Source: Flavobacteriales bacterium (GTDB lineage Bacteria > Bacteroidota > Bacteroidia > Flavobacteriales_F > PHOS-HE28). Taken from it: DNA of 64,000 nucleotides. Each line of letters starts with the position of its first letter. Within the stretch, counting starts at the first letter, position 1. The translations under genes were made by a program, and so were the position numbers. Positions 36,953 through 55,361 of the stretch are shown in pieces. The stretch is taken from contig JAGNSU010000011.1 in NCBI GenBank assembly GCA_017987895.1, forward strand, positions 1 through 64,000, read 5' to 3'. A model generated the notes under the pieces. That model was not told where the DNA came from. It worked only from the letters and a program-made list of their open reading frames with translations, and made no database searches.

Positions 36953-36961
36953 CGGAACGGA

Positions 36962-37000: not shown

Positions 37001-37004
37001 ATGA

Positions 37005-38129: not shown

Positions 38130-38261
38130 ACGCACAAGGTCGGGAGGAATGTGCGGATCTCTGGTAGCGTGCCCATTCGAATTCGGCACTGACGATCGTC
38201 ACTACTTGACCCGCGTTGAGCACCTACTTTGACCGGCTGGTCAATATTCAAAGGAGTGAAA

Positions 38262-38828
38262 GTGCCGTTGTTCATCAAGCATGTTCTCCCGTTCGCTGCG
38301 ATGTACGCGATGATGGTCGCGGCCGCGATCCTATTGGATCGCGGGCTGCACGCCGTTGGGTTGGACCATGTGGGGCGTTACCTGGGGCCGGTGGGTACGG
38401 TGCTCATCGTGCTGTCCTTCGTGTATTCGTTGCGCAAGCGGAAGATCATTCCCTCCGGTTCACCCAAGACCTACCTCAGGGTGCATGAGTATCTCGCTTG
38501 GGCCGGCTCGGTGATGATCCTTGTGCATGCCGGCATCCATTTCAACGCCCGCCTTCCCTGGCTGGCCACCTATATGCTACTTATCAGTGTGGCGAGCGGG
38601 CTTGTGGGCAAATACCTCCTGAAGAGCGCCGGTCATTCTTTGGAAGAACGACGACAGGAATTGATCGCGAGCGGATCCACCACCCCTGAAGTGGACAAGG
38701 AGCTCTTCTTCGATTCGGTGACGGTGAACGCCATGAAGCAATGGCGTGTGGTACACCTGCCCATCGCGTTCACGCTGGGCTTCCTTACCCTCTTGCACGT
38801 GATCACCGTCCTCATGTTCGGCAAATGA
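38262..38828 (+). CDS. Membrane b-type cytochrome-like protein (partner of the 12-heme cytochrome)
   Basis: 188 aa, four to five membrane helices. Histidines in or near helices (HEYLAWAG, LVHAGIHFNA, VVHLPIAF, LLHVITV) look like bis-His heme b ligands. The C-terminal VHLP(I/F)A block is shared with the 286-aa protein at 40820, so the two are distant paralogues. Start at GTG because AAGGAG lies 5 nt upstream; a TTG 11 codons earlier overlaps a TACTTTG element. It overlaps the 12-heme gene by ATGA. Inferred role: passing electrons between the quinone pool and the periplasmic cytochrome. Confidence 0.7.
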   Translation: MPLFIKHVLPFAAMYAMMVAAAILLDRGLHAVGLDHVGRYLGPVGTVLIVLSFVYSLRKRKIIPSGSPKTYLRVHEYLAWAGSVMILVHAGIHFNARLPWLATYMLLISVASGLVGKYLLKSAGHSLEERRQELIASGSTTPEVDKELFFDSVTVNAMKQWRVVHLPIAFTLGFLTLLHVITVLMFGK

Positions 38829-39841
38829 AGAAGGTGATCATCCTTGCCTTGATCGGGTCGTTCATCGGGCTGGTGTACCTGTTCCCGCACAGCATGCTCG
38901 AGCCCGGGGAACTGGTGGAAGGACACCAGAAGACCGGCGACGATTGCTTCTCCTGCCATCAACCCTTCGGTGGACTGCCCAATGCCAAGTGCATCGTCTG
39001 TCACACCGTAGCCGAGATCGGGATCGATACGCTGCTGAACGCGAGACCGACGCTTTTCCATGAGGCGCTCAACGATATGGAGTGCGTGGAATGCCATAGC
39101 GAGCACATAGGGCGGAACGCGGACCTGACCATGAGCGGCTTCGAGCACGCACTGGTCCCAGTAGCGATCGTGGAGGATTGCAACCGGTGCCATGCGAAAC
39201 CAACGGACGAACTGCACACGCCGCTGCCCAACAAATGCGCGGCCTGCCATGATACGCAGGGCTGGAAACCCGCGCGCGAGTTCGACCATTCCTTGCTGTC
39301 GGCAGCGAGTAAGAGCGATTGTGCGAGTTGCCACCAGCGCCCCACCGATACGCTACATGAACGCATGAAGGGCAACTGTGCCAGCTGCCACTCGACCACC
39401 GCATGGAAGCCCGCCACCTTCGAGCATGCCGTATTGTCCGCTGCGGAGAAGGACCATTGCGCAACCTGCCACCAACCGCCCAAGGATGCTTTCCACCAAG
39501 GGGCCAAGGACAATTGCGCCAGTTGCCATGGCACGAACGCATGGTCGCCTTCCACGTTCGATCACTCGGCGTACTTCCGATTGGATGGCGACCACAACGC
39601 GAAGTGCGCCACGTGCCACCAAGTCAACAACTACAGCAGCTACACCTGCTACGGTTGCCACGAGCATACACCGGGCAATATCATCGGCGAGCACCAGGAA
39701 GAGGGGATCACGAACATCACCGACTGCGTGCGATGCCACCGCAGCGGTGATGAGGATGACATCCGCATGGATGGACGGTCCGGAAGCGAAGGCGGGGAAG
39801 GTTCGCGCAAGGGCCGTGACCGTGAAGGGGAGGACGATTGA
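38825..39841 (+). CDS. 12-heme c-type cytochrome
   Basis: 338 aa. The N-terminal helix (MKKVIILALIGSFIGLVYLF) is a signal peptide or membrane anchor. Twelve CxxCH heme-binding motifs follow, from CFSCH near residue 39 to CVRCH near 308, many in units of the form CASCHxTxAWKPxxFEH. Extra His residues (FDH, FEH) probably supply distal ligands. The tail after the last heme is highly charged (Asp, Glu, Arg, Gly) and unlike the core. It is translationally coupled to the b-type cytochrome gene. Inferred periplasmic electron carrier. Confidence 0.93.
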   Translation: MKKVIILALIGSFIGLVYLFPHSMLEPGELVEGHQKTGDDCFSCHQPFGGLPNAKCIVCHTVAEIGIDTLLNARPTLFHEALNDMECVECHSEHIGRNADLTMSGFEHALVPVAIVEDCNRCHAKPTDELHTPLPNKCAACHDTQGWKPAREFDHSLLSAASKSDCASCHQRPTDTLHERMKGNCASCHSTTAWKPATFEHAVLSAAEKDHCATCHQPPKDAFHQGAKDNCASCHGTNAWSPSTFDHSAYFRLDGDHNAKCATCHQVNNYSSYTCYGCHEHTPGNIIGEHQEEGITNITDCVRCHRSGDEDDIRMDGRSGSEGGEGSRKGRDREGEDD

Positions 39842-39870
39842 ACCGTGCCCCTGACCTGACGGGCTTCCCG

Positions 39871-39945
39871 ACGGCCGTGAAGCAGATGATCGAGGACCCC
39901 AGCAAGATGGTCTTCGGCGACATGGTGCCGGGGGATTGCAGTTCA
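39871..39945 (+). pseudogene. Duplicated 3' end of sucB (copy 3, degraded)
   Basis: The first ~48 nt match the sucB tail ([15 protein letters not shown] in frame), then similarity decays and the stop is lost. It shares with copy 2 (35834) the variants CCCCAGCAAG and TTCGG, and both are followed by GTAGGTCTTG, so copies 2 and 3 are closer to each other than to the real sucB end. It starts 29 nt behind the stop of the 12-heme gene. Confidence 0.75.
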
Positions 39946-40023
39946 GGTCGTAGGTCTTGGGTGGTTCTCTGCTGCTCGGAGGCATCGGGCAGCCCCTGTG
40001 GCCTTCCGGGGATCACGTGTTCA

Positions 40024-40044
40024 GGAACCGATCCGTCCGGTTCC
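40024..40044 (+). terminator. Hairpin in the gap behind the 12-heme gene
   Basis: GGAACCG-atccgtc-CGGTTCC forms a perfect 7-bp stem. No T-tract follows, so termination is uncertain. Confidence 0.35.
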
Positions 40045-40101
40045 GTCGAAGGGAAATCCCGTTCGGGGGATATTGTCATGGAACTGCCATGGCTTGCTTC
40101 C

Positions 40102-40109
40102 TACCTTCG
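40102..40109 (+). promoter_or_regulatory. Putative -7 element of the small FHPPKSIG protein
   Basis: TACCTTCG ends 8 nt before the ATG at 40118, the same spacing class as sucA. Confidence 0.5.
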
Positions 40110-40117
40110 AGGCCGGT

Positions 40118-40504
40118 ATGAAGAACTTCGCGGCTTACCTCCTCATTCTCCATGTGCTGTTGAGCACTTGGGCGCCGGGCGGGCTTGCGGAGGTGGCACG
40201 CCTTCCTTCCCTACAGAGCCATTACGCGGAGCACTTCCGGGAAAGCGGTGGCACCATGGGGTGGGGTGAGTTCCTGAAACTCCACTTCGCGGACCCGGAA
40301 CATGAGCGCCAGGATGCGGACAGGCACAGTGCCTTGCCCTTCCATGGTCCCTCCATGGCCATGCACATGTTCCTGCCGCCGGCAGCATCGGCCAGTGCGG
40401 TACCCGCCGTGCTGACCCCCCACGTCCGTCCCGGGACCCTAGCGGCCGAAGTGGGCGAGTGGCCTGGGCGATCGGTATTCCATCCGCCCAAATCGATCGG
40501 TTGA
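40118..40504 (+). CDS. Small secreted protein with LPFHG and C-terminal FHPPKSIG (copy A)
   Basis: 128 aa. Signal peptide about residues 1-22; mature part LPSLQSHYAEHFRE, then FLKLHFADPEHERQDADRH, LPFHG, and the end SVFHPPKSIG. It is homologous along its length to the 129-aa protein at 54969 on the opposite strand. His/Asp/Glu richness suggests metal binding. From memory (unverified), similar small LPF-type proteins in Bacteroidota lie near heavy-metal efflux genes. Function unknown; the position at the left edge of the main cytochrome operon suggests a role linked to metals or heme. Confidence 0.75.
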   Translation: MKNFAAYLLILHVLLSTWAPGGLAEVARLPSLQSHYAEHFRESGGTMGWGEFLKLHFADPEHERQDADRHSALPFHGPSMAMHMFLPPAASASAVPAVLTPHVRPGTLAAEVGEWPGRSVFHPPKSIG

Positions 40505-40819
40505 GGCGCGTGGGCAGGAACCCCCTGCTGCGCGGACAAGAGCCACTGCTTCTCGGCGGGTTCTTGAACAGTCGTCAACCGTCAATTCCAGTTCATGCGG
40601 ACCCTTGGGGCCATAGTCTTCAACATCATCTTGCTGCAACGCTGGTCCATGGCGATCATTCCGGTGTACTCGGCGAATATCTGCGATCCGGCGCCATGAG
40701 AGGTCGGACCTTCCCCCATATCCCGGCGTATGATCTTCATTGTGCGGGCCGCATCGGATGCATGTGCATCGTAGCGTCGTATTGGGAACGACTGAACCTA
40801 CCGGCTTGACAGGACATTC
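40505..40819 (+). other. 315-nt gap between copy A and the main cytochrome operon
   Basis: No convincing gene. A 34-codon reading starting MRTLGAIVFNIILLQRWSMA (ATG near 40596) has a hydrophobic start but no recognisable family or continuation. Antisense readings are composition artefacts. The operon promoter must lie here or upstream, but no good TAnnTTYG element was identified. Confidence 0.4.
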
Positions 40820-41680
40820 ATGACGCGGACCACCCATACCATCTTCATCGGGACCATGTCGGCCATCGTCGTCGTGGTAACGGCCTACCTCACCTATGTC
40901 GGCTGGTCGTACTACCAGCTCCCGCTCGAGGAGCGTTTCTACCACCCGCAACATAACTGGTTCAAGCCGAGCGGCGCCTACGGCCATGGCATCGGTATCC
41001 TCGGCACCTTTCTCATCCTCTTCGGGGTGGTGATCTACATCGCGCGCAAACGGTACAACTTCATGACGAAGCAGCTCCGGTTGAAGTACCTGCTGGAGTT
41101 CCACATCTTCCTATGCACATTGGGGCCGATCCTCATCCTCTTCCACACCGCCTTCAAATTCGGCGGACTGGTCTCAGTGGCGTTCTGGAGCATGGTGGCC
41201 GTGGTGGCCAGCGGCGTGATCGGGCGCTTCATCTACATCCAGATACCGCGCACCGTGGAGGGTCGCGAACTCAGCCTGAACGAAGTGAAGGGTATGCGGT
41301 CGCAACTGGTAGAGAACCTGAAGCAGAGCGTGGGATTGGACGAACAGTTGATCCCCTTGATCGTCGGGACCACGGGCGGCGATGGTGCTGCCGCCAAGGG
41401 GAGGTCGTTCATCGCCCGGTACCTCGATGAACGCAAGGCCGTCGGCGTGATCCGATCATCACTGAAAGCGAAGAACATGGCGCGCGAGGAGCAGGCATCG
41501 GTCATCCGCATGGTGAAGGAGGAATTCGCACTGTCGCACCGCATCGGTCGATTGCTGACCATGCAGAAACTGTTCAAGTACTGGCATGTGGCGCACCTGC
41601 CATTCGCGTTGATCATGCTGATCGTGCTCATCATTCACGTGGCCGTCACGTTGTCCTTCGGATACAAGTGGATCTTCTGA
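40820..41680 (+). CDS. Membrane b-type cytochrome-like protein (first gene of main operon)
   Basis: 286 aa. Membrane helices at about 10-30, 55-75, 95-115, 118-135 and 255-280. Histidines at EFHIFLC, LILFHTAFKF, WHVAHLPFA and LIIHVAV are placed like heme b ligands. A large soluble loop (about 140-250) lies between helices four and five. The C-terminal block resembles the protein at 38262. The stop overlaps the ATG of the next gene (TGATG). Inferred as the inner-membrane entry point, exchanging electrons between quinone or the FeS-flavoprotein and the multiheme cytochromes. Confidence 0.7.
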   Translation: MTRTTHTIFIGTMSAIVVVVTAYLTYVGWSYYQLPLEERFYHPQHNWFKPSGAYGHGIGILGTFLILFGVVIYIARKRYNFMTKQLRLKYLLEFHIFLCTLGPILILFHTAFKFGGLVSVAFWSMVAVVASGVIGRFIYIQIPRTVEGRELSLNEVKGMRSQLVENLKQSVGLDEQLIPLIVGTTGGDGAAAKGRSFIARYLDERKAVGVIRSSLKAKNMAREEQASVIRMVKEEFALSHRIGRLLTMQKLFKYWHVAHLPFALIMLIVLIIHVAVTLSFGYKWIF

Positions 41681-43011
41681 TGGAAGTGCTGATCGAACAA
41701 ATAGCGATCTACGGTTCGGTGCTCCTGCTCTGCGGGCTCACCATCTTCTTCTACATGCGCAGCCTCAAGAAGAAGTCCGCGATCGTGGAGAAGAAAGTGG
41801 CGAAGGCCAAGGAGGAAGGCATGTTCGAGCCGGTGTCGCTGCATCCGTACATCGATCTGAGCACCTGCATCGGGAGCGCCGCCTGCGTGGCCGACTGTCC
41901 GGAAAAGGACATCCTCGGCATCGTGGACGGCAAGGCCACGGTGATCCTCGCCAGCAATTGCGTGGGGCATGGAGCGTGTTTCCATGCGTGCCCCGTGCAG
42001 GCCATCTCCTTGCGCATCGGCACCGAGACGCGCGGTATAGACCTGCCGCACGTCGATCAGACCTTCGAGACCAACATCAAAGGGATCTACATCGCCGGGG
42101 AGCTTGGCGGCATGGGCTTGATCAGGAACGGTGTGGAACAGGGCAAGCAGGCCATGGAGAACATCGCGAGCGCCAGGAAGCCCAAAGCCGACGGTGTACT
42201 CGATGTAGTGATCATCGGCGCAGGACCGGCGGGCATTTCCGCCACGTTGGAAGCGAAGAAGCAAGGATTGACCAGCGCCACGTTGGAGCAGGATTCGCTC
42301 GGCGGCACCGTGTACACGTTCCCACGCTCCAAGCTCGTGATGACCTCACCGATGGACCTGCCCTTGTACGGCAAGGTGAAGTTGTTCGACACCACGAAGG
42401 ATGAACTGCTCCAGCTCTGGCGGAAGGTGATCAGCGAGCACAAGATCGAGATCACCGAGAACACGAAAGTGGATGCCATCGTGCCGCAGAAGGACGGGAC
42501 GTTCAAGCTGTCGACCAACGTGGGCAAGGACTACATCTGCAACAATGTTCTGTTGGCCATCGGCCGCCGTGGAACACCAAGAAAATTGGGCATACCCGGC
42601 GAAGAGTCGACCAAGGTGGCCTACCGGTTATTGGAACCCGAGAACATCTCCGGCAAGAAGGTGATCGTGGTGGGAGGCGGTGATGCCGGTGTGGAATCGG
42701 CCATGCTGCTGATGAACGACAACGAAGTCCTCTTGGTCAATCGCAACGAGAATTTCGCGGGCATCAAACCCAAGAACCGCGAAGCTGTGACCGCCGCGAT
42801 CGATGCGGGGAAGATGAAAGCCGTGTACAAAGCCAACTTGGTATCCATAGCACCGGAGTCCGTGTTGTGCAAAGTGGGTGAAGACACGCAGCAACTGCCG
42901 AACGACCTCGTGTACATTTTCGCTGGTGGTGAACTCCCTACCGGCTTCTTGCAGAAGGCCGGCATTGAGATCACAAAACGGTTCGGACATATCGTGAAGA
43001 AGCACACGTGA
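41680..43011 (+). CDS. Membrane-anchored ferredoxin/FAD pyridine-nucleotide oxidoreductase
   Basis: 443 aa. One N-terminal helix (about 8-26) anchors a ferredoxin-like domain with two cysteine groups, C63-C69-C73 and C94-C100-C104. The second Cys of each CxxCxxCxxxCP motif is replaced (Ser66, His97). A thioredoxin-reductase-like module follows: FAD motif GAGPAG at 180-185 and NAD(P) motif GGGDAG at 332-337. Predicted to transfer electrons between NAD(P)H, FAD, FeS and the membrane cytochrome. Tightly coupled to its neighbours (TGATG upstream, GTGA downstream). No redox-active CxxC disulfide typical of thioredoxin reductase is seen. Confidence 0.85.
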   Translation: MEVLIEQIAIYGSVLLLCGLTIFFYMRSLKKKSAIVEKKVAKAKEEGMFEPVSLHPYIDLSTCIGSAACVADCPEKDILGIVDGKATVILASNCVGHGACFHACPVQAISLRIGTETRGIDLPHVDQTFETNIKGIYIAGELGGMGLIRNGVEQGKQAMENIASARKPKADGVLDVVIIGAGPAGISATLEAKKQGLTSATLEQDSLGGTVYTFPRSKLVMTSPMDLPLYGKVKLFDTTKDELLQLWRKVISEHKIEITENTKVDAIVPQKDGTFKLSTNVGKDYICNNVLLAIGRRGTPRKLGIPGEESTKVAYRLLEPENISGKKVIVVGGGDAGVESAMLLMNDNEVLLVNRNENFAGIKPKNREAVTAAIDAGKMKAVYKANLVSIAPESVLCKVGEDTQQLPNDLVYIFAGGELPTGFLQKAGIEITKRFGHIVKKHT

Positions 43012-44630
43012 GATCCCTCGCGACATACCTGTTCGTTGTGCTATCGCTGGTGGCGATGACAAGTCGCGCGCAATTGTCGCCGGGGGATCTGACCACCGCG
43101 CATGCCAACCTGGAGGGCATGAGCAACTGCACGCAGTGCCACGATCTCGGCAACAAGGTGACGAACGCCAAGTGCCTGGAGTGCCATAAGGAGATCAAGT
43201 CGCTCATCACGCAGAAAAAGGGCTACCACGCAAGCAAGGACGTGAAGGCGAAGGATTGCTTCACCTGCCACAGCGAGCACCATGGACGGAAGTTCGAGAT
43301 GGTGCGCTTCGATGAGAAGACGTTCGATCACGGGTTGACGGGCTATGCTCTCACCGGCGCCCACAAACCCGTTGACTGTCGCGAATGCCACCTGCCGGAC
43401 AACATCGCTGACAAGGAGTTGAAGAAGCGGGACAAGACCTTCCTAGGCCTGGACCAGAAGTGCCTTTCCTGTCACGACGACTTCCACGAGAGCACGATGG
43501 ACAAGGATTGCCTGAAGTGCCATAGCATGACGGCATGGAAGCCGGCCAGCGTGTTCGATCACGACAAGACCGACTTCCCCCTCAAGGGAAAGCACGTCCC
43601 AGTGGATTGCAAGGAATGTCACGCCATCACCACCAAGAACGGCAAGCAGTTCCAAGCGTTCGGCGATGTGCCCCACACGGATTGCAAGGCGTGCCACGAT
43701 GATCCGCACAACGCGCACTTCAGCAACGCTTGCGCCCAGTGCCACACGGAGAACGCCTTCTCGACCTTCGCAGGGAAGGACCGCTTCGACCACAACACCA
43801 CGCCGTTCAAGTTGAACGGCAAGCACAAGACCACCGATTGCTTTGAATGCCACAAACGCACCAGCGATCCGCTCACGGTCTTCCAGGACCGGGCCGGGGT
43901 GGCCATGAACCAATGCGTAACGTGCCACAAGGACCAGCACGACGGGAAGTTCGGCACGGACTGCGCGAAGTGCCACCAGGAGAAAGGCTGGGTCGCCGTG
44001 AAGTCGATGGACTTCTTCGATCACAGTGTCACCGACTTCCCATTGCAGGGAAAGCACGTTGACGTGGATTGCAAGAAGTGTCACAAAGGGCGGTACACCG
44101 ATCCGATCGTTTTCGTGGCGTGCAATAGTTGCCATGCTGACTTCCACAAAGGCGAGTTCGCGGAGAACGGCGTATCGCCGGATTGCGTGGAATGCCACTT
44201 CCTCACCGATGGGTTCGAGGTGAGCATGTATTCCTTGGAGCAGCACGCCACATCGAAATTCCCGCTGGACGGGGCGCACGTGGCCACACCCTGCTCCGAA
44301 TGCCATTTGAACGAGAAGTGGAAGAAAGGTGCCGAGAAGTCGACCGGAGAGAAGTGGAAATTCCGCGAACTGGCAATGGCCTGCGCTGATTGCCACGACA
44401 ACGTGCACGGGGAAGAGTTCGCACAGGCAGGTGTTACGGATTGCAAGCGTTGCCACGTTACCGGCGACTGGTTCCCCAGCTTGTTCGATCATACCAGGAC
44501 GGCTTTTCCGCTGGAAGGTGAACACAAGACCGTGGATTGCCGGGAGTGCCACAAGAACCCTGCGGAGGGCGATGAGAAATTGGGGTCGTTCAAGATCGCG
44601 AAGTACCAATGCATAGACTGCCACAAATAG
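43008..44630 (+). CDS. 20-heme c-type cytochrome
   Basis: 540 aa. Signal peptide (about 1-22, ending SRAQ) and then 20 CxxCH motifs, from CTQCH near residue 41 to CIDCH at the extreme C-terminus. Many hemes occur in units with FDH...FPLxGxHxxVDCxxCH, where the two extra His are likely distal ligands. No lipobox and no T9SS tail, so a periplasmic location is most likely. Starts with GTG overlapping the oxidoreductase stop (GTGA). The last codons overlap the next cytochrome gene by 22 nt. Confidence 0.94.
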   Translation: MRSLATYLFVVLSLVAMTSRAQLSPGDLTTAHANLEGMSNCTQCHDLGNKVTNAKCLECHKEIKSLITQKKGYHASKDVKAKDCFTCHSEHHGRKFEMVRFDEKTFDHGLTGYALTGAHKPVDCRECHLPDNIADKELKKRDKTFLGLDQKCLSCHDDFHESTMDKDCLKCHSMTAWKPASVFDHDKTDFPLKGKHVPVDCKECHAITTKNGKQFQAFGDVPHTDCKACHDDPHNAHFSNACAQCHTENAFSTFAGKDRFDHNTTPFKLNGKHKTTDCFECHKRTSDPLTVFQDRAGVAMNQCVTCHKDQHDGKFGTDCAKCHQEKGWVAVKSMDFFDHSVTDFPLQGKHVDVDCKKCHKGRYTDPIVFVACNSCHADFHKGEFAENGVSPDCVECHFLTDGFEVSMYSLEQHATSKFPLDGAHVATPCSECHLNEKWKKGAEKSTGEKWKFRELAMACADCHDNVHGEEFAQAGVTDCKRCHVTGDWFPSLFDHTRTAFPLEGEHKTVDCRECHKNPAEGDEKLGSFKIAKYQCIDCHK

Positions 44631-47332
44631 GGGCCCTCCTGCTGGTAGCTGTGCGGTTGAACGCGCAGTCGCCGCACGGCGAAGCCATGAAAATGGATTG
44701 CGCCCAGTGCCATGTACCGGCGGATTGGACGAGCATTTCGGACAGCATTCCGTTCGACCATGATCTGACGCGCTATCCGCTCGCTGGCACTCACGCACAG
44801 GTGGATTGCAAGGCGTGCCACACAACGCTCGTCTTCGATGAGGCTCCCGACCAGTGCAGTGCCTGCCACACCGATATGCACGGCATGACCGTTGGCGATG
44901 ATTGTGCACGCTGCCACACACCCCGGAATTGGTTGGTCGATGCGATCCCTGAGCTGCATGAGGAGAACGGGTTCCCCTTGATCGGTGCGCATGGCAATTT
45001 GAGCTGCGTGGACTGCCACACCTCGGAGACCGCGTTGCGCTTCGACCGAATTGGCAATGACTGTATCAGTTGCCATGCGGATGATTTCCGGGCCACCCGG
45101 CATCCGGACCACATCATGGCCGGATTTTCGGACGATTGCATCCAGTGCCATGATCCGTTGGGCTCTGGTTGGAACACGGAGATCGTCGATCACGACTTCT
45201 TCCCTCTCATTTTAGGGCACGCCATTTCCGACTGCGACCAGTGCCACACGGGAGGTTCTTTCTCCACCGCCTCGCCGGAGTGCATCAGTTGCCACCAGAG
45301 CGACTTCTCAGGCACCGCCAACCCGGATCATACGGTTGCGGGATTCTCAACGGACTGCGCCACGTGCCATACTATAAGCCCAGGATGGACACCCGTGACC
45401 TATGATCACAGTGGCTATCCATTGATCGGTGCGCACGCGTTGGTGCAGGATTGTGACCAATGCCACAACGGCAATTACAACAACACGCCGAACACCTGCG
45501 AGGGCTGCCACCTGGCGGACTACAACGGCAGTGTCAACCCCAACCACGCCGCTGCTGGCTTTTCCACGGATTGCGCGCAATGCCATGACGAGACGGCGTG
45601 GTCGCCGTCCGGCTATGATCACAACGGCTACCCACTGGTCGGGGCGCATACCACCGCAAGTTGCGATCAATGCCACAACGGCAATTACAACAACACGCCG
45701 AACACCTGCGAGGGCTGCCACCTGGCGGACTACAACGGCAGTGTTAACCCCAACCACGCCGCTGCTGGCTTTTCCACGGATTGCGCGCAATGCCATGACG
45801 AGACGGCGTGGTCGCCGGCCGGTTATGATCACAACGATTATCCGTTGGTCGGGGCGCATGCCACCGTAAGCTGCGATCAATGCCACAACGGCAATTACAA
45901 CAACACGCCGAACACCTGCGAGGGCTGCCACCTGGCGGACTACAATGGCACCACCGCCCCGAACCACACTTCGGCACAGTTCACCACGGACTGCACGCAA
46001 TGCCACGACGAAGCGGCGTGGTCGCCGTCCTCATACGATCATGCGACCACGGGTTTCCCACTTACCGGCGGCCATGCCGGCGTTGACTGCGCGCAATGCC
46101 ACTCCAACGGTTACCAGGGTACACCGACCAACTGTGATGCCTGCCACATGCCGGACTACAATGGCACCACCAACCCGAACCATGCGGCGGCCCAGTTCCC
46201 TACGGATTGCACGATCTGTCACGATGAGACCGCCTGGGGGAACTCGACCTTTGATCATGGCACGACCAGCTTCCCGTTGACCGGGGGCCACTCCGGCGTT
46301 GCCTGCACGCAATGCCATTCCAATGGGTACCTGGGTACACCGACCAACTGTGATGCCTGCCACATGCCGGACTACAATGGCACCACCGACCCGAACCATG
46401 CGGCGGCCCAGTTCCCCTCGGATTGTACGCAATGCCACGATGAGACAGCTTGGTCCCCGTCGAGCTATGACCACAACGGCTACCCGCTGATCGGGTCGCA
46501 CGCCACGGTCAGTTGCGACCAATGTCACAATGGCAACTACAACAACACACCGAGCACATGCGACGGATGTCACATGCCGGACTATAACGGGACGACCAAC
46601 CCGGACCATGCCGCAGCTCAGTTCCCTATGGATTGTGCGCTATGCCACGATGAGACGGCCTGGAACAATTCGACCTTCGATCATAGTACGACCGATTTTC
46701 CCCTGACTGGTGGCCATGCAGGCGTCAACTGCATCGCCTGCCATTCCAATGGCTATCAGGGTACACCGACCAACTGCGATGCCTGCCATATGCCGGATTA
46801 CAATGGCACCACCAACCCGGACCATGCCGCTGCCCAGTTCCCCACCGACTGTGCGCAGTGCCACAATGAAACTTCCTGGACCCCTTCTACGTTCGATCAT
46901 AGCGCGACGGGCTTTGCGCTGACCGGAGGGCATGCGGGCGCGAGTTGTCTCCAGTGCCATTCCAACGGCTATCAAGGCACGCCGACGGATTGTGATGCGT
47001 GCCACATGGCGGATTTCAACGCCACCATCAACCCGGACCACCAGGCAGCCCAGTTCCCCACGGATTGCGCCCAGTGCCACAGTGTATCGGCATGGTCGCC
47101 TTCCACGTTCGATCACGACGGGATGTACTTCCCGATCTATAGTGGAACGCACAACGGGGAGTGGAACACGTGCGTTGAATGCCACACCGACCCGAACGAC
47201 TATAGTGTGTTCAGTTGCATCGATTGCCATGAGCACGACGACCAAGCCCAGGTCGACAATGATCATAGCGGGGAGAACGGGTATTCGTACAACAGTGCCG
47301 CCTGCTTCAATTGCCATCCCAATGGGAACTGA
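44609..47332 (+). CDS. 37-heme c-type cytochrome with tandem three-heme units
   Basis: 907 aa with 37 CxxCH motifs. A short signal peptide ends near NAQ and the mature start is QSPHGEAM. Ten hemes lie in the N-terminal domain (to about residue 264). Eight tandem units of about 71 aa follow, each with three CxxCH and three further His in (Y/F)DH, G(A/G)H and NP(N/D)H. A closing three-heme domain ends with CFNCHPNGN. The equal number of CxxCH and extra His suggests bis-His hemes throughout. Likely a long periplasmic or extracellular electron wire. Paralogous to the next gene in both terminal domains. Confidence 0.95.
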   Translation: MHRLPQIGALLLVAVRLNAQSPHGEAMKMDCAQCHVPADWTSISDSIPFDHDLTRYPLAGTHAQVDCKACHTTLVFDEAPDQCSACHTDMHGMTVGDDCARCHTPRNWLVDAIPELHEENGFPLIGAHGNLSCVDCHTSETALRFDRIGNDCISCHADDFRATRHPDHIMAGFSDDCIQCHDPLGSGWNTEIVDHDFFPLILGHAISDCDQCHTGGSFSTASPECISCHQSDFSGTANPDHTVAGFSTDCATCHTISPGWTPVTYDHSGYPLIGAHALVQDCDQCHNGNYNNTPNTCEGCHLADYNGSVNPNHAAAGFSTDCAQCHDETAWSPSGYDHNGYPLVGAHTTASCDQCHNGNYNNTPNTCEGCHLADYNGSVNPNHAAAGFSTDCAQCHDETAWSPAGYDHNDYPLVGAHATVSCDQCHNGNYNNTPNTCEGCHLADYNGTTAPNHTSAQFTTDCTQCHDEAAWSPSSYDHATTGFPLTGGHAGVDCAQCHSNGYQGTPTNCDACHMPDYNGTTNPNHAAAQFPTDCTICHDETAWGNSTFDHGTTSFPLTGGHSGVACTQCHSNGYLGTPTNCDACHMPDYNGTTDPNHAAAQFPSDCTQCHDETAWSPSSYDHNGYPLIGSHATVSCDQCHNGNYNNTPSTCDGCHMPDYNGTTNPDHAAAQFPMDCALCHDETAWNNSTFDHSTTDFPLTGGHAGVNCIACHSNGYQGTPTNCDACHMPDYNGTTNPDHAAAQFPTDCAQCHNETSWTPSTFDHSATGFALTGGHAGASCLQCHSNGYQGTPTDCDACHMADFNATINPDHQAAQFPTDCAQCHSVSAWSPSTFDHDGMYFPIYSGTHNGEWNTCVECHTDPNDYSVFSCIDCHEHDDQAQVDNDHSGENGYSYNSAACFNCHPNGN
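45401..47107 (+). repeat. Tandem array of eight ~210-216-nt units coding three-heme modules
   Basis: Each unit starts at a TAT/TTC-GAT-CAC triplet series. Units 1 and 2 are almost identical over about 147 nt (45461 and 45671, exact period 210, a single C/T difference there), and unit 3 continues the identity for about 75 nt from 45881. Later units are more diverged. The pattern indicates repeated in-frame duplication, the latest being recent or homogenised by gene conversion. Confidence 0.95.
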
Positions 47333-48830
47333 GCGTACAGCGTGGATCCGCAGAAAGGCCATGGGACCATGGTCACGAGGCATCCTCGTAGCGTTCTTTC
47401 CGGCCTTCGGGATGGTCCCGATCCATGTCCAGGCGCAATCGCCCCACGGTGAGGCGATGAAGATCGATTGTGCCGCATGCCACGTACCTGAAAGTTGGAG
47501 CGCCATGCGCGACTCGCTGGCGTTCGACCATGGGCAGACCCATTTTCCATTGATAGGCGTCCATGACCAGGTGGACTGTAGGTCCTGCCACGCTTCATTG
47601 GTCTTCAGTGAGGCCCCGCCGAACGATTGCATTTCGTGCCACACGGATGTGCATAGTATGTCCGTGGGTGACGATTGTGCCCGGTGCCATACGCCGGTGA
47701 GCTGGCTGGTCGACGACATACCTGAATTGCACGAGCAGAACGGATTCGCATTGGTCGGGGTGCATAGCAACCTGAGCTGCGTGGATTGTCACATTTCCGA
47801 CAACAACAACACGTTCAACAGGGTTGGCAATGATTGCATCAATTGCCACCAAGCGGATTACCTCGCCACCAAGAGCCCTGATCATATGTTGTCGGGATTC
47901 TCCGCGAACTGCGTGGAGTGCCATGATCCATTGGGCTTCGGCTGGGCGACGGATCTCGTTGACCACGACTTCTTTCCGCTCACCCTGGGGCACGACATCG
48001 GTGATTGCGCGCGCTGCCATACCACCGGCGATCTCTCGGGCGCATCGCCCGAATGCGTGAGCTGCCATCAGCAGGATTACAACAGCACAACGAACCCGAA
48101 CCACGCGGCTTCCGGATTCTCCACCGATTGCGCCTCCTGCCATACGACCGATCCGGGGTGGACACCCGCGACGTTCGATCACGATGCACAGTTCTTCCCC
48201 ATCTACAGCGGATCGCACAATGGCCAATGGAGCGCATGCACGGACTGCCACACGAACCCCAATGACTTCTCGGTGTTCTCATGTACCGGATGCCACGTGA
48301 ACCCCCAGACCGACGGCGACCACAATGGCATGCCCGGTTATGTCTATGAGAGCAATGCCTGCCTGGCCTGCCACCCGAACGGGGATGCCTTCGGCTTTGA
48401 CCACAACACCACCGATTTCCCCCTCCAAGGGGGTCACGTCGGCGTTAACTGCACCGAGTGCCACGCGAATGGCTATGCGGGCACGCCCACCAACTGCGAC
48501 GCGTGCCACATGGACGATTACAACGGCACCACCAACCCGAACCATAGCGGCGCCCAGTTCCCCACGGATTGCGCTCAATGCCACAATGAAACCGCGTGGA
48601 CCCCGGCCAACTTCGATCACGACAACCAGTACTTCCCGATCTATAGCGGGAACCACAACGGCGAATGGAACACCTGTTCTAGTTGCCACACCAACAGCAA
48701 CGACTACAGTGTCTTCAGCTGCATTATCTGCCACGACGACGAGGCACAATTAGCCGACGATCACAGCGGTGAGAACGGATACGCGTTCAACAGCAATGCA
48801 TGCTTCTCATGCCATCCCAACGGGAACTAG
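47322..48830 (+). CDS. 19-heme c-type cytochrome, short paralogue of the 37-heme protein
   Basis: 502 aa by the ATG at 47322 (11-nt overlap with the previous gene); an ATG at 47361 is also plausible and gives a tidier signal peptide. The mature start QSPHGEAMKIDCAACH and the first ten hemes align with the 37-heme protein, and the ending CFSCHPNGN is the same, but only one three-heme repeat unit (about 375-440) separates two copies of the FPIYSGxHNGxW closing-type domain. Total 19 CxxCH. No lipobox. It presumably works in the same chain. Confidence 0.93.
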   Translation: MGTERTAWIRRKAMGPWSRGILVAFFPAFGMVPIHVQAQSPHGEAMKIDCAACHVPESWSAMRDSLAFDHGQTHFPLIGVHDQVDCRSCHASLVFSEAPPNDCISCHTDVHSMSVGDDCARCHTPVSWLVDDIPELHEQNGFALVGVHSNLSCVDCHISDNNNTFNRVGNDCINCHQADYLATKSPDHMLSGFSANCVECHDPLGFGWATDLVDHDFFPLTLGHDIGDCARCHTTGDLSGASPECVSCHQQDYNSTTNPNHAASGFSTDCASCHTTDPGWTPATFDHDAQFFPIYSGSHNGQWSACTDCHTNPNDFSVFSCTGCHVNPQTDGDHNGMPGYVYESNACLACHPNGDAFGFDHNTTDFPLQGGHVGVNCTECHANGYAGTPTNCDACHMDDYNGTTNPNHSGAQFPTDCAQCHNETAWTPANFDHDNQYFPIYSGNHNGEWNTCSSCHTNSNDYSVFSCIICHDDEAQLADDHSGENGYAFNSNACFSCHPNGN

Positions 48831-48832
48831 CG

Positions 48833-50431
48833 ATGGCTATGCGAACGCTCACGCTTTGGTCCCTTCTCCTGGTCGTATCCGGTTGCTTCGGGCAGGACGC
48901 GCTGCAGGGTGAGGTCACCTTCATCACGGCGAACAATGTGTATGTCAACTTCGGAACTACGGCCGCCATCGCGATCGGGGATACCCTTCACGTGGTGAAG
49001 GGTACAGAGGTCAGTCCCTGCTTGGTGGTGACCACCAAGTCCACCACCTCATGCCTCTGTACCGTCGTTGCGGGGTGCAAGGTCCAGAAGAACGACAAGG
49101 TCGTGCTTAGGACCCCGCATCCCGTTGCGCCGCCTTCGGGTCGGTCGACCGGAAAGGATGAGAAAGGTCCCGCCGCCGAGAAGGTCCGTGACAATGGCGA
49201 ACGTTATCGAGGCCGGCTTTCGGCGACGAGCTATAGTACGATCCCATCGGCGAGGGAGAACGATCACCGGGTGATGTATCGCCTTTCGGCCAATGCGGAC
49301 CGGATCGGCGGCTCCAAGTTCTCCGCCGAGACCTACTTGAACTACCGGCAGTTGTTCCCGGCGGGGGAGAGCAAGTATCCGCAGCGCACGGAGTTCTTCA
49401 ACGTGTATAGCTTGGCGGTGAACTATGCCCCGGACTCCACTTTCTCGATCACGCTCGGGAGGAGGGTCAATAACAGCGCATCATCCTTGGGGGCCATTGA
49501 TGGATTGCAGGTGGAGAAGCACTTCGGCGGTTTCTTCACGGGCGTGATCGCCGGGTCCCGGCCTGATATCATCGACTATGGCTTGAACGTCGGCCTGCTT
49601 GAATACGGGGGCTATCTGGGATATGCCAGGAGCGCGGAGAAGTTGGATACGCGAACGACATTGGGGCTTTTGCAGCAGACCAATGCGGGACCGGTCGATA
49701 GGAGGTACGCCTACTTTCAGCATAGCTCCACGTTCGGGAACGACCTCAACATCTTCGGTTCCTTTGAGCTCGATCTCTACGGTTTGGTGGATGGTGCACC
49801 TACCACCAGGGCCCGGCTGACCAACTTCTATCTCTCCTCCCGCTATCGGTTCGGAAAGCGGGTCGATCTCTTCGCTTCCTATGATGCCCGGAGGCGTATC
49901 GTTTACTACGAAACCTATCGGAGCGATATTGAGATGCTGCTGGACGATGATGACGCGATGCAAGGTGCCCGCTTGCGGTTGAACGTGCGTCCGATCAAGG
50001 ATATCAGTTTGAGCGCGAGCTACAGCAAGCGGTTCGAAAGTGATGGAGGGAACAGGTCCGACAATATCAACGGCTACATCACCTTTTCCAAGGTCCCTGC
50101 CATTGGTGGGCGCTGGTCTGTGCAGGTGAACCGGAACACATCGAGCTATGTGAGGAGCGATGTACTATCCGTGCGGCATTCGCGGATGCTCGTCAAGAAG
50201 CGGATGAACGCGAGCGTATATTTCCGTATGGCGAACTACAGGTACTCCACCCTCCTTGATGTGGAGGGGGTTCCCATGGAACGGCACCAGAAGTTCTATG
50301 GCGTCGATCTCTCCTACAACATCCTGCCCAAGTTGGTTTTCAGTGTGTTGGGCGAACTCTCGACCATGGGCGATGAACAGAACTACAGAGTGAACGTGAG
50401 CATCACAAAACGTTTCGACAGTAAGAGATAG
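48833..50431 (+). CDS. Outer-membrane beta-barrel protein of the cytochrome operon
   Basis: 532 aa. Signal sequence ends near VVSGCFGQ; the VSGC could be a lipobox, otherwise normal cleavage. A small N-terminal domain (about 25-100) with SPCLVVT and SCLCTVVAGC contains four cysteines and looks SH3/OB-like. From about 125 to the end, alternating Tyr/Arg/Ser-rich strands (for example YRLSANADRI, FSITLGRRVNN, KRVDLFASYDARR, NYRVNVSITKRF) indicate a barrel. By analogy with porin-cytochrome systems it may hold a cytochrome across the outer membrane; no direct similarity to MtrB is apparent. Starts 2 nt after the 19-heme gene. Confidence 0.75.
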   Translation: MAMRTLTLWSLLLVVSGCFGQDALQGEVTFITANNVYVNFGTTAAIAIGDTLHVVKGTEVSPCLVVTTKSTTSCLCTVVAGCKVQKNDKVVLRTPHPVAPPSGRSTGKDEKGPAAEKVRDNGERYRGRLSATSYSTIPSARENDHRVMYRLSANADRIGGSKFSAETYLNYRQLFPAGESKYPQRTEFFNVYSLAVNYAPDSTFSITLGRRVNNSASSLGAIDGLQVEKHFGGFFTGVIAGSRPDIIDYGLNVGLLEYGGYLGYARSAEKLDTRTTLGLLQQTNAGPVDRRYAYFQHSSTFGNDLNIFGSFELDLYGLVDGAPTTRARLTNFYLSSRYRFGKRVDLFASYDARRRIVYYETYRSDIEMLLDDDDAMQGARLRLNVRPIKDISLSASYSKRFESDGGNRSDNINGYITFSKVPAIGGRWSVQVNRNTSSYVRSDVLSVRHSRMLVKKRMNASVYFRMANYRYSTLLDVEGVPMERHQKFYGVDLSYNILPKLVFSVLGELSTMGDEQNYRVNVSITKRFDSKR

Positions 50432-50432
50432 G

Positions 50433-51215
50433 ATGATGAACAAGAAGATCGGATACATGTATGCATCGATCATCTGTGGGGTCATGGTGACCGCATGCGA
50501 TGATGGTCCCAAGACCATTGCCTCGGAAAAGTCCAATGAGGGCACTACCGGGGTCTTCTCCGGAAATGCGGAGGATGCGCCCCAAGGGGCCGCTATGACC
50601 GGCGCAGGGGTGGGGGCGGACGTGCACTCGATCACCGCGCTCGAAGTGCTTCCAACGACGAAGTACGTTTACGTGCGTGTGAAGGAGGGCGATGAGGAGT
50701 TCTGGATCGCGTCCACCAAACAGGAGGTCGTGGTGGGCAGAACCTACTTCTACCGTGGCGGACTTCTGAAGACCGATTTTCAGAGCAAGGAGTACAACAG
50801 AACGTTCGAGAAACTGTATTTGATCTCGCAGCTCGTTCCTTCCGACCATGGCAGCCAAGGTTCGGGTATGCCACCATCCGCGCCGTTCACTCCTACCCAG
50901 CAGGAGCCGGCATCGCCGATCATCGGCGAAGGATCCGTGAAGATCTCCGAACTATTGGCGGACCCGAAAAGGTTCGCCGGAAAGTCCGTTCAGGTCAGTG
51001 GCACCTGCACCAAGGTGAACCCGAACATCATGGGTCGTAATTGGGTCCATTTGAACGATGGCACCACCAAGGACCAAGACCTTGTCGTTACCACGGACGT
51101 GCTGATCCCGGAGGGCCATGCCGTAACCATGGTGGGCACCGTGGCGCTGGACAAGGACTTTGGCGCGGGGTATCAGTACGGTATCCTCTTGGAAGGCGGT
51201 ACGCTGGTGAAGTAG
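50433..51215 (+). CDS. Lipoprotein with two small beta domains, last gene of cytochrome operon
   Basis: 260 aa. Lipobox VTAC near residue 22 marks a lipoprotein. The first domain (about 65-135: ALEVLPTTKYVYVRVKEG ... EEFWIASTKQEVVVG) recalls GW/SH3-like domains seen beside cytochrome genes. The second (about 168-258: SVKISELLADPKRFAGKSV, VSGTCTKVNPNIMGRNWVHL) resembles an OB-fold domain. No heme motif. Starts 1 nt after the barrel gene stop. Possibly an assembly or accessory factor for the conduit at the membrane surface. Confidence 0.75.
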   Translation: MMNKKIGYMYASIICGVMVTACDDGPKTIASEKSNEGTTGVFSGNAEDAPQGAAMTGAGVGADVHSITALEVLPTTKYVYVRVKEGDEEFWIASTKQEVVVGRTYFYRGGLLKTDFQSKEYNRTFEKLYLISQLVPSDHGSQGSGMPPSAPFTPTQQEPASPIIGEGSVKISELLADPKRFAGKSVQVSGTCTKVNPNIMGRNWVHLNDGTTKDQDLVVTTDVLIPEGHAVTMVGTVALDKDFGAGYQYGILLEGGTLVK

Positions 51216-51235
51216 GCGCTGGTACCGGGCATCGA

Positions 51236-54200
51236 CTAGGAGAACAAGCGGAACGCCCGCTTCCGCACAAAGGCGATCAGACCAATGATCACCAGCACCA
51301 TGACCCCGATGTACACCCATTGCGGTACCGGCACTGGATCGCCGGCGGCATAGGAGTGGAGACCTGAGAGGTAGTAGTTCACCCCGTAGTAGGTCATGAT
51401 CACGGTGGCTAACCCGAAGAGCGAGGCCACATTGTAGGCGTACAGGCCCTGCAGCTTCGGGATGAGCCGCATGTGCAGGATGAACGCATAGACCAGGATG
51501 GTGACCAAGGCCCAGGTCTCCTTCGCATCCCAACCCCAGTAGCGTCCCCAGGATTCGTTGGCCCACACCCCACCGAGGTAGGTGCCGATGCTGATCATGA
51601 ACAAGCCCCCGATCAAGGTCATCTCACTGAGGTAGGACATTTCCTTCACGACCTTGTGGATGCGTTTCTCGTTGTGTTTCGAGAGGAAGATCATCAGGAT
51701 GAGGTTGATCAAGCCGATCACCGCGCCCAGCATGAGGAAGCCGTAGCTCCCCGCTTCCAATGAGACGTGGATGGTCAACCAATAGGAACGCAACACCGGG
51801 ACCAACGGGGTGATCTCCGGGTCCAGGTAGCTCAACATGGCCACGAGCAGCACCGTTGCCGCAAGGATCATGGTCGCTGCGGATCCGCCAAAGGACTTCC
51901 GAGTGAACAGGATACCCGCCAGCACTGTGGTCCAGGCGATGTAGATCATCGACTCATAGCCATTGCTCCACGGTGCACGTTCGGAGACGTACCAACGCAG
52001 GCCAAGACCGATCGTGTGCAGGAAGAACCCGAACAGCAGGAGCACGAGCAGCACTTTCTGGACCTTCCGCAGGTCAACGGCGGGTTTGAAGACCGAAAAG
52101 AACATCAGGAAAAGGAAGGCCACACCCAGGGAGGTGTAGAACAAGGCCAACCGGTTGAAGACGTTCAGTTCGTTCAGGAAGATCTCCGCTCCGATCCGCG
52201 CAGTGCTGGGGACCACGGCCGCACCTTGCTCCTTTTGGTAAGCACTGAGTTCGTTCAGCAGCTTATCAGGAAGTGCATAGTTGCCGGTGGACATGGCCTC
52301 CCGCAACGCATGGACGTATGTGGAGAAGAACCGGTCCGCAACGGGGTCGTTACCATGTTCGTGACCGTCCGATCGCGCACCGACCCAGGTATTGTTGGGG
52401 TCACCCGGCACCGGTATGATCTTGAGCATTCCGCCCCCCAGCACCATGTTCATGATGTTCAAGCGTTCATCCACTTTCATCAGGTCCTTCTCGTAGACCC
52501 CGCGATCGATGGGTTGCATCGCGTTGACCCTGCTGACCTCATCGCGAAGCACGTAGTCGCCGTTCGAATCGAAGAAGTCCTCGTACGCGGCCAGTGGGCC
52601 CGGGACCCCCAACTGCTCGTGTATCTTCTGGTGTTCACCCAGCTTGATCATCGGGACCGCGATCCAGTCCTTGCTACTTGCCAACATCCCCAGGACCACC
52701 TGGTCGGCGGACAGGTCGTTGATGCGCTCCTTGCGGTACACCTTGCGCATCACCTCGCGGGTCAGTGTGTGCATCGGTTTCATTCGCCCTCGATGGTCCT
52801 GGACCACGATCCTGCTGAAACGTTCGGCATGCGCGGCGGCCACGATGTTCAGGTTGTTACGCTGATCGATCACCTTTTGCGCCTGGGCCAGCGTGGGTGC
52901 CGAGAGCAGGGCCAGCACCAACACCGGCACCGTGGTCGTCCTCCTCATCATTTCGATGTTCTCCGAAAGCTTGTGGAACCGGCTCTTCTTGCTCAAGAGG
53001 GACATGATCATGCCGATGGTCAGCAGGATGTAGCCGATGTAAGAGATCCAGGTCCCCCAGAAGTCGTGGTTCACGCTCAGATATGTCCCAAGCTCATCCT
53101 GGTCGAAGGAGGACTGGAAGAAACGATAGCCATCGTGGTCCAGAACGTTGTTCATGAAGATGCGGTGGTCCTCCTTCACGTCCGATCGCTCATCTATCAA
53201 CTGTACCTCACTGGCGTAGGATGTGGCGCTGTTGGTGCCAGGGTAGCGCTCCATGATGAAGTCATAGAGCTTCAGGGAGAAGGGGAGGGGAATGTCCTTG
53301 GCTCCATAGGATATGGCCACGTCCATGTCATCCGCATGCGCGACCGCGGGTCTGCCGGCCATGCCCTTCTGTCCATAGACCATCAGTTCCTGCGCGGTGC
53401 CATTCACCTTCACCACCATCCGAAGTGCGGTCAGGCTTTCGTTCTTCACCTTGGGACCTTCGGATCCGAGTTTGACGACGGCTTGTTCCTTGAAGTCTCC
53501 GAAGACAAATCCATTGGTCCCGTCGTTGTACATGGAGCGAAGCCGCAACGGATGATAGGCTTCTCGTGGATACAATGTGTCCGTGGTCTGCGTGGCCATC
53601 ACGGTCTGTACCAATGCCCTATCCGACTTGATAAGAAGGGAATCGTTCCGGTAGGCGATGTTCACGGCCTCCGGCAGCAGCGTTTCTGTGAAGTTGAAGA
53701 GCACGTTGCGGTACCGCCTGGTCTCTCCGGCGCTGACATAGTATTCCTCCCGACCGCCCATGCCCGCGAACACCACCTTGATGGTCGGCTTGCCGTTCGG
53801 AGCCTCCTCCAATAGCTGCTTGGGGTTCGGTATGAACTCCTCTACCGCAGCCTCGATCAGGTCATTGCCGATGAGATATGAACCCCTCCAATCGTTGTTC
53901 CCCAACGTCGAAAAAAGAACGGGTTCATCGAAATGATAGACCTGCTCGCCCTGCCGCACTTGAAAAAGCAAATAGGTCTCCGCCGAAAGGAAACTGTTCG
54001 ACGATCCGTTCTCCCGGATATGCATGATGCCCTCGTAGCCGAAGTACCGTGTAACGCCCGCGCCGATCAGGATCACGATCATGGCCAGGTGGAACGTGAG
54101 CAAGGCCCACTTCCGCTGCCGCACCATCTTGAACCGCACCATGTTCACCATGATGGTGATGGCGAAAAGGACGAGCAGGAGCGAGAACCACGAGGACTTA

Positions 54201-54397
54201 TAGATGACGTGCTGTGCCGAGCTGGTGCCGAAGTCGTTCTCCACGAACGTGCCTACGCCGATCGAGGCAGCGAACAATAGGATGTACATCCCCGCAGCGC
54301 GGGTGGTGAACATTGGCGCGAGAACTTTCTGCACACCGGTTCGGAGGGTGATGAGCATTTTCTTCGTTCGGGATGAGGTTGCCATGGATCGTGTCAT
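51236..54397 (-). CDS. ccsBA: Cytochrome c biogenesis protein CcsBA (ResB-CcsA fusion)
   Basis: 1053 aa System II heme exporter and ligase that attaches heme to CxxCH outside the inner membrane. The N-terminal CcsB/ResB part has helices at about 35-110 (AGMYILLFAASIGVGTFVE; LLTFHLAMIVILIGAG) and a large periplasmic domain. The CcsA part near the C-terminus has the WWD heme-handling motif WGRYWGWDAKETWAL flanked by conserved His (LTIHVSLEAGSYG, ILHMRLIPK). Convergent to the cytochrome operon with 20 nt between stops. Without this protein the 88 CxxCH sites could not be loaded. Confidence 0.93.
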   Translation of the reverse strand: MTRSMATSSRTKKMLITLRTGVQKVLAPMFTTRAAGMYILLFAASIGVGTFVENDFGTSSAQHVIYKSSWFSLLLVLFAITIMVNMVRFKMVRQRKWALLTFHLAMIVILIGAGVTRYFGYEGIMHIRENGSSNSFLSAETYLLFQVRQGEQVYHFDEPVLFSTLGNNDWRGSYLIGNDLIEAAVEEFIPNPKQLLEEAPNGKPTIKVVFAGMGGREEYYVSAGETRRYRNVLFNFTETLLPEAVNIAYRNDSLLIKSDRALVQTVMATQTTDTLYPREAYHPLRLRSMYNDGTNGFVFGDFKEQAVVKLGSEGPKVKNESLTALRMVVKVNGTAQELMVYGQKGMAGRPAVAHADDMDVAISYGAKDIPLPFSLKLYDFIMERYPGTNSATSYASEVQLIDERSDVKEDHRIFMNNVLDHDGYRFFQSSFDQDELGTYLSVNHDFWGTWISYIGYILLTIGMIMSLLSKKSRFHKLSENIEMMRRTTTVPVLVLALLSAPTLAQAQKVIDQRNNLNIVAAAHAERFSRIVVQDHRGRMKPMHTLTREVMRKVYRKERINDLSADQVVLGMLASSKDWIAVPMIKLGEHQKIHEQLGVPGPLAAYEDFFDSNGDYVLRDEVSRVNAMQPIDRGVYEKDLMKVDERLNIMNMVLGGGMLKIIPVPGDPNNTWVGARSDGHEHGNDPVADRFFSTYVHALREAMSTGNYALPDKLLNELSAYQKEQGAAVVPSTARIGAEIFLNELNVFNRLALFYTSLGVAFLFLMFFSVFKPAVDLRKVQKVLLVLLLFGFFLHTIGLGLRWYVSERAPWSNGYESMIYIAWTTVLAGILFTRKSFGGSAATMILAATVLLVAMLSYLDPEITPLVPVLRSYWLTIHVSLEAGSYGFLMLGAVIGLINLILMIFLSKHNEKRIHKVVKEMSYLSEMTLIGGLFMISIGTYLGGVWANESWGRYWGWDAKETWALVTILVYAFILHMRLIPKLQGLYAYNVASLFGLATVIMTYYGVNYYLSGLHSYAAGDPVPVPQWVYIGVMVLVIIGLIAFVRKRAFRLFS

Positions 54398-55358: not shown

Positions 55359-55361
55359 ATG

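Follow-up and report, generated by a model that had tools for sequence, protein, structure and literature searches.

How might a member of the Bacteroidota pass electrons across its whole cell envelope, and with which proteins? The question is raised by a 64,000-nt stretch of a Flavobacteriales genome (positions 1 to 64,000 of contig JAGNSU010000011.1, hereafter the window), in which an initial annotation, made from the sequence alone, had predicted a trans-envelope electron conduit with 88 c-type hemes. Following up this annotation computationally, we find that positions 40820 to 51215 hold seven genes, encoding an inner-membrane protein (memB), an iron-sulfur/flavin (FeS/FAD) oxidoreductase, cytochromes with 20, 37, and 19 heme motifs, a beta-barrel, and a lipoprotein. 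Reading this operon as a trans-envelope conduit made of parts unlike MtrABC is well supported, based on the barrel model, the signal-peptide-like N-termini, a histidine pattern suited to two hemes in memB, and conservation of the genes as a unit. The full statement, that the operon would link NAD(P)H oxidation to acceptors outside the cell or on its surface, is in our judgment probable on balance, with considerable room left for other explanations.

An operon conserved as a unit

Counting heme motifs in all open reading frames of at least 90 aa, we found 12, 20, 37, and 19 CxxCH motifs in four cytochromes, a total of 88 as initially annotated, and no other frame in the window with more than two. 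The remaining parts listed in the initial annotation are all there as well, namely two His-rich membrane proteins, the FeS/FAD oxidoreductase (Pyr_redox and Fer4 domains), the barrel, the lipoprotein, and a CcsBA protein. The gene count had to be corrected from eight to seven, and the packing is tight and includes overlaps, as described, without being limited to spacings of 1 to 2 nt: in gene order, the first three junctions overlap by 1, 4, and 22 nt, and the other three leave gaps of 28, 2, and 1 nt. Moreover, the 88 hemes do not belong to one system but to two units. Since the 12-heme cytochrome sits in what looks like a separately acquired module, the conserved conduit comprises 76 hemes here.

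A neighborhood survey, which the initial annotation had called for, shows that the operon is conserved as a unit. Scanning with memB yielded 244 relatives, of which 80 were kept as loci for comparison (numbered with L below); they include isolates of Yeosuana, Aureitalea, Maribacter, Arenibacter, Luteirhabdus, and Flagellimonas, together with metagenome-assembled genomes (MAGs) of Saprospiraceae and Cyclobacteriaceae. Most of these 80 loci, which span Flavobacteriaceae, Saprospiraceae, Cyclobacteriaceae, and others, share the core order. Counting only loci with enough flanking DNA at each step, the FeS/FAD gene adjoins memB in 78 of 79, a multiheme gene comes next in 66 of 66, the long cytochrome follows in 46 of 47, and the barrel in 33 of 37; in three of the four loci lacking the barrel, a gene for 62 to 69 hemes lies near the end of the available DNA. 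Distant versions keep memB, the 20-heme cytochrome, the long cytochrome, and mostly the barrel, with the FeS/FAD gene placed last.

The proposed inner-membrane entry module

memB (40820..41680, + strand) is modeled by AlphaFold2 with five membrane helices (predicted local distance difference test score, pLDDT, 83), and its K/R-rich loops put residues 75-90 and 134-260 on the cytoplasmic side. Two of the helices each carry two histidines spaced 14 residues apart (His 95/109 and 259/273), and these pairs are invariant both in 60 conduit members and in homologues that are only 22-26% identical. This pattern predicts two b hemes, one near each face of the membrane. Paired histidines about 14 apart on two helices are a trait of the ferric reductase/NADPH oxidase type, which memB and its short paralogue cytb1 both fit; a match to that family was not obtained, with cytb1 scoring 18 bits against a Ferric_reduct cutoff of 28, memB giving no match, and Foldseek showing nothing significant. 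Searches with memB found no Pfam or NCBIfam family and no relative by sequence in the PDB, and the protein has no CxxCH motif.

The adjoining FeS/FAD gene (41680..43011, + strand) encodes a pyridine-nucleotide oxidoreductase (Pfam Pyr_redox_3, 9.8e-38; Fer4_10, 9.6e-11) that has a membrane segment at its N-terminus, with lysines after it, along with two 4Fe-4S motifs and a domain of the YpdA/ferredoxin-NADP-reductase type; YpdA and ferredoxin-NADP reductase are also its relatives in the PDB. The K/R-rich loops place the reductase domain in the cytoplasm.

In addition to the conduit loci, a tblastn search against plasmids detected proteins resembling memB in Sphingobium, Acetobacter, Variovorax, Spirosoma, and Alteromonas. 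Five loci were inspected (L124, L125, L127, L128, and L129), and in each the memB-like gene lies between a reductase gene and a small gene. The membrane protein of these triads, which has no Pfam family, is homologous to memB with the same invariant histidines, and the small gene encodes a c3-type cytochrome wherever it is annotated or was scanned. In contrast to the operon, the triads have a flavoprotein of another family (FAD_binding_6, NAD_binding_1, and Fer2 in the three scanned loci) and no adjacent barrel or long cytochrome. They occur in copper-resistance regions or beside the NiFe hydrogenase of Alteromonas macleodii. That two unrelated reductases serve the same membrane protein and the same type of cytochrome is our main argument for inferring a flow of electrons from NAD(P)H to the periplasm. 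By this analogy, the memB module would be an NAD(P)H-to-periplasm wire, extended to the surface in the window's operon, and it favors electron flow in the outward direction.

The cytochromes and the three-heme ladder

The three cytochromes of the operon follow on the + strand: the 20-heme protein, a probable periplasmic connector (43008..44630), the 37-heme protein (44609..47332), and the 19-heme protein (47361..48830, taking as its start the ATG that precedes the signal peptide). The last two are tandem paralogues (52% identity, E 3e-155), and all three have signal-peptide-like N-termini. In these and the 12-heme cytochrome, every cysteine falls within a CxxCH motif, and histidines outside the motifs number 15 for 12 hemes, 23 for 20, 40 for 37, and 21 for 19. 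This slight surplus, together with the absence of other cysteines, fits bis-His hemes of the c3/c7 type, and Pfam agrees on a c3/c7-type family.

The connector and the long cytochrome differ in how they vary among relatives. The first cytochrome is near-constant, with 23 hemes in 57 and 20 hemes in 16 of 73 complete copies. The long cytochrome ranges from 13 to 85 hemes, has 3n+1 hemes in 57 of 60 complete copies, and grows by 24.6 aa per heme (r = 0.998). Most three-heme units of the 37-heme protein are 70-72 aa long with a motif spacing of 15-25-30/32. These regularities suggest a fixed connector joined to a ladder that evolves by gain or loss of whole three-heme rungs. With the nanowire_3heme profile TIGR04257, the 37-heme protein scores 30 bits over three stretches, below the cutoff of 40. 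The biggest complete long cytochrome found has 2140 aa and 85 CxxCH motifs (L056:14014-20436, a Bacteroidetes MAG).

The outer-membrane end

The barrel gene (48833..50431, + strand) has no relative in Pfam, in NCBIfam, or by sequence in the PDB. Its AlphaFold2 model, made with 35 sequences, forms a barrel of 22 strands with a small N-terminal beta domain (mean pLDDT 84.2), and Foldseek matches it to outer-membrane proteins, namely PapC (E 4.5e-11), MOMP, AlgE, and the OprD type. Both the model and the fold comparison thus point to the outer membrane, with no sign of another location, which the initial annotation had named as grounds for giving up its proposal. The lipoprotein gene (50433..51215, + strand) encodes a lipobox (VTAC), a weak GW-like domain, and a conserved C-terminal domain with the motif NPNIMxRNW; its orthologue in Emticicia is annotated as a GW dipeptide domain protein. 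Ordinary signal-peptide-like N-termini are also present in most barrels and cytochromes of the relatives, whose lipoproteins have a lipobox. In L008 (8947-13227), the lipoprotein gene is immediately followed by a second barrel paralogue, which lies on the other strand.

CcsBA, a fused cytochrome c maturation protein (51236..54397, - strand; Pfam ResB and Cytochrom_C_asm), is convergent with the operon. It scores 175 bits with TIGR03144 (cutoff 187.6), and a CcsBA gene is found near the operon, in either orientation, in 25 of the 80 loci.

Distribution and genome context

In a census of 296 high-quality genomes covering the phylum Bacteroidota, 29 carry memB, 2 of the 73 in the window's class and 27 of the 223 in other classes. 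The full set also occurs on a plasmid, pEMTOL02 of Emticicia oligotrophica DSM 17448 (L126), where its genes bear no more specific annotation than CcsA, hypothetical, NAD(P)-binding, cytochrome c3 family, and GW-domain proteins. The plasmid-borne operon adjoins a gene for an extracytoplasmic function (ECF)-type sigma factor and a second redox cluster (Rieske protein, DUF5777 barrel, YceI, and c-type cytochrome).

The window's genome encodes a cbb3 oxidase and a NosZ domain and gave no match to NrfA. Among the 29 carriers, FixO is found in 25 (four weak or partial), NosZ in 13, and NrfA in 20. Across the phylum sample, memB shows no significant association with NosZ or FixO. NrfA is much more frequent in carriers (20 of 29) than in non-carriers (25 of 267). 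Lineage confounds this difference, which seems weak inside families f17 and f35 among the listed genomes; for these reasons, we do not take it as evidence of coupling.

The most frequent conserved neighbor in the 80 loci is a resistance-nodulation-division (RND) efflux pump, present in seven (L012, L015, L017, L025, L026, L044, and L074) at 0.8-8 kb upstream of memB and mostly on the opposite strand. With only seven loci, it was set aside as too weak a pointer to function.

Comparison with known systems

On the scores of Pfam and NCBIfam profiles against their curated cutoffs, we reject Mtr, Nrf, Hmc, Qrc, Tmc, and Ext systems as orthologues. All four cytochromes score 25-65 bits with the MtrA/DmsE family (TIGR03508, cutoff 192.2), only the 20-heme protein registers with the OmcA/MtrC family (TIGR03507, 15.9 bits against 209.3), and MtrB_PioB (PF11854) is matched neither by the barrel nor anywhere in the genome. 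The initial statement that this is a differently built conduit with components unlike MtrA, MtrB, and MtrC is well supported: the profile search it proposed returned no Mtr-family match above cutoff, and the structure search led from the barrel to the outer-membrane proteins named above. Nor did the set match a known complex of nitrogen or sulfur respiration above cutoff, where clear orthology would have overturned the proposal; the scores are up to 45 bits against 400 for HmcA, 24 against 180 for QrcA, 21 against 114 for TmcA, and 23 against 134 for NrfH.

By the general definition of a porin-cytochrome system, an outer-membrane barrel encoded together with exported multiheme c cytochromes, the operon qualifies. 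It shares this arrangement, and a presumed trans-outer-membrane transfer, with MtrCAB of Shewanella and with MtoAB and PioAB, from which it differs in having cytochromes of 20 or 23 and of 13 to 85 hemes and, compared with MtrCAB, an inner-membrane end that is predicted to be b-type and flavoprotein-linked in place of CymA. Pcc of Geobacter (OmbB-OmaB-OmcB) likewise combines a barrel with a periplasmic and a further cytochrome in one cluster, but by its description those cytochromes have 8 and 12 hemes (PMC4245776), in contrast to the 20 or 23 and the 3n+1 series here, and the operon here carries its own inner-membrane module. Mtr and Pcc conduits are themselves convergent and unrelated to each other (PMC4245776), and OmbB-like Pcc has been reported in Ignavibacteria (PMC7399161). 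We judge from these comparisons that the system probably works like a porin-cytochrome conduit yet fails the sequence tests for Mtr. At the inner membrane, the role proposed for memB, feeding periplasmic cytochromes, is that of CymA, CbcL, and ImcH; these are c-type multiheme quinol oxidases (PMC6295460), whereas memB lacks CxxCH and pairs with a pyridine-nucleotide flavoprotein.

Parts of the system were probably glimpsed before, as giant cytochromes of Saprospiraceae and as a gene cluster of an anode bacterium. Bacteroidota of activated sludge encode cytochromes with more than 100 heme motifs, the largest dominated by Saprospiraceae, for which extracellular electron transfer or a capacitor role was proposed (PMC11495043). 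These probably include members of the present family, and that paper, its supplements aside, gives no description that we found of an operon, a barrel, or an entry module. An uncharacterized cluster, Bacteroidetes_1, with six multiheme cytochromes and a barrel, comes from an organism enriched on an anode (PMC8258643); compared by description, it differs from the operon here in that no FeS/FAD gene is mentioned. In the open-access literature, we found no description of the operon, the entry module, or the three-heme step rule, subscription journals and preprints lying mostly outside the search.

Proposed route of electrons and its alternatives

We propose that NAD(P)H is oxidized in the cytoplasm by the membrane-anchored FeS/FAD enzyme, whose two 4Fe-4S clusters hand the electrons on to a stack of two b hemes that spans the inner membrane within memB. 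The 20/23-heme periplasmic cytochrome would receive them next, followed by the long ladder cytochromes (here those with 37 and 19 hemes). Aided by the 22-strand barrel, these may extend to the outer membrane or through it. The lipoprotein may assemble or anchor the complex, and CcsBA would attach the hemes. When O2 runs low, the system would likely serve to dispose of reducing power on acceptors outside the cell or at its surface. The oxidases of the carriers and the isolates described as aerobes among them fit such a redox outlet under O2 limitation better than obligate mineral respiration.

Several points weigh against this proposal. A barrel of 22 strands may be narrow for a cytochrome inside it, and the cytochromes carry no lipobox or recognized surface-export signal. 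Use of NAD(P)H by the FeS/FAD enzyme is suggested by its domain type alone, and memB has no significant Foldseek match. Because the window's genome has a cbb3 oxidase and a NosZ domain, there is no evident need for a mineral acceptor, and the named isolates carrying memB are mostly described as aerobes.

The same observations could be explained by an electron store, with the giant cytochromes acting as a periplasmic or surface capacitor for oxic-anoxic switches and the barrel as a minor or assembly part. Hemes range in number from 13 to 85 in an otherwise constant operon, as if capacity were tuned, carriers often have O2 oxidases, and the capacitor role already suggested for the Saprospiraceae giants (PMC11495043) would agree. 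However, a capacitor needs no barrel, which is nonetheless retained at nearly all complete loci, and a fixed connector combined with a barrel resembles a route; we consider this explanation unlikely.

Alternatively, the wire might run inward, with Fe(II), minerals, or partner cells as the source of the electrons and NAD(P)+ or the respiratory chain as their destination. Conduits can operate both ways (PMC8258643), most carriers have oxidases able to use incoming electrons, and a gene of the VIT family with a rubrerythrin-like part, related to iron, lies beside the 12-heme module. That gene belongs to the inserted block and not to the operon, though, and a flavoprotein of the NAD(P)H type would be a poor entry for high-potential electrons. 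The homologous triads in copper-resistance loci are also read more simply as export of reducing power to the periplasm, which leaves electron uptake distinctly unlikely.

Those triads, and the RND gene near some of the operons, would in turn suit a surface reductase that handles copper or other metals for resistance and not for respiration. Such a role is in our view improbable. The plasmid triads lack the cytochromes and barrel of the conduit, the operon includes no gene for a metal-binding protein or multicopper oxidase, and the RND gene occurs in only 7 of the 58-65 loci with upstream DNA, at some distance. Finally, a part in known nitrogen or sulfur respiration, in which the cytochromes would serve a periplasmic reductase such as NrfA, draws on the phylum-wide excess of NrfA in carriers and is very improbable given that excess's confounding by lineage, the lack of an NrfA match in the window's genome, and matches to Nrf, Hmc, Qrc, and Dms that are all far below cutoff.

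Compared with the trans-envelope conduit from NAD(P)H to the surface, a broader evolutionary claim is more tentative, and we offer it as a possibility: that Bacteroidota have an additional type of outer-membrane conduit, assembled independently and wired directly to cytoplasmic NAD(P)H and not to the quinone pool, with an outer wire made of one polypeptide extended in three-heme steps (13 to 85 hemes), spread phylum-wide, including aerobes, and present on a plasmid. If the conduit reading is true, extracellular electron transfer would be widespread and mostly overlooked in this phylum, given memB in about a tenth of the genomes surveyed, and would extend to marine and wastewater lineages usually seen as aerobic degraders. 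Two further gains would be an entry route independent of the quinone pool and a natural set of heme wires that differ stepwise in length. Cultured carriers, such as Emticicia oligotrophica DSM 17448 and strains of Yeosuana, Maribacter, and Arenibacter, allow direct testing.

The apparently inserted 12-heme module and flanking genes

The 12-heme cytochrome (38822..39841, + strand; c3/c7-type by CxxCH count and Pfam) overlaps by 4 nt with cytb1 (38262..38828, + strand), the short memB paralogue (BLASTP, 6e-7) with His pairs 75/89 and 165/179, also 14 apart. Neither belongs to the core. The pair lies between odhB and the operon and stops some 1 kb before memB. L001 (memB 84% identical) and L002 (75%) are the closest relatives; there, odhA-odhB immediately precede memB, separated from it by no more than one small gene, whereas 5.6 kb separates odhB from memB in the window, and the block containing cytb1 and the 12-heme gene is missing from both relatives. 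The 3' end of odhB is present as the native copy at the insertion boundary (35122..35226) and as two partial copies, 87% (35834..35931) and 89% identical (39863..39935), all on the + strand (repeat family D1); a genome-wide search gave only one weak match elsewhere. Because these copies flank the block and the relatives lack it, the VIT/rubrerythrin gene, cytb1, and the 12-heme gene look like an insertion. The odhB copies (35122-39952) border segments of 0.7 and 4 kb, as if the site had been used for integration repeatedly. The VIT-family gene itself (37005-38189), with a rubrerythrin-like N-terminus and divergent from cytb1, probably encodes an iron or manganese exporter.

Synteny thus rejects 12+20+37+19 as one ancestral set. 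cytb1 was not found in the 80 loci. Pairs of cytb1 with a 10- to 14-heme cytochrome also occur in L111-L114, with an 8-heme version in L115; such pairs are separate from conduit operons in four other genomes, and the pair in L111 directly adjoins one. Since similar pairs mostly stand apart, a functional link of the module with the conduit is possible and not ancestral. One further cytochrome c7-like match elsewhere in the window's genome lies in a 471-aa open frame (contig C150:81535-81684, L081).

Related small proteins ending in SVFHPPKSIG flank the cluster, one on each side (40118-40504 and 54969-55523). The copy in L001 has no Pfam family, and relatives of these proteins are encoded directly upstream of memB in both L001 and L041.

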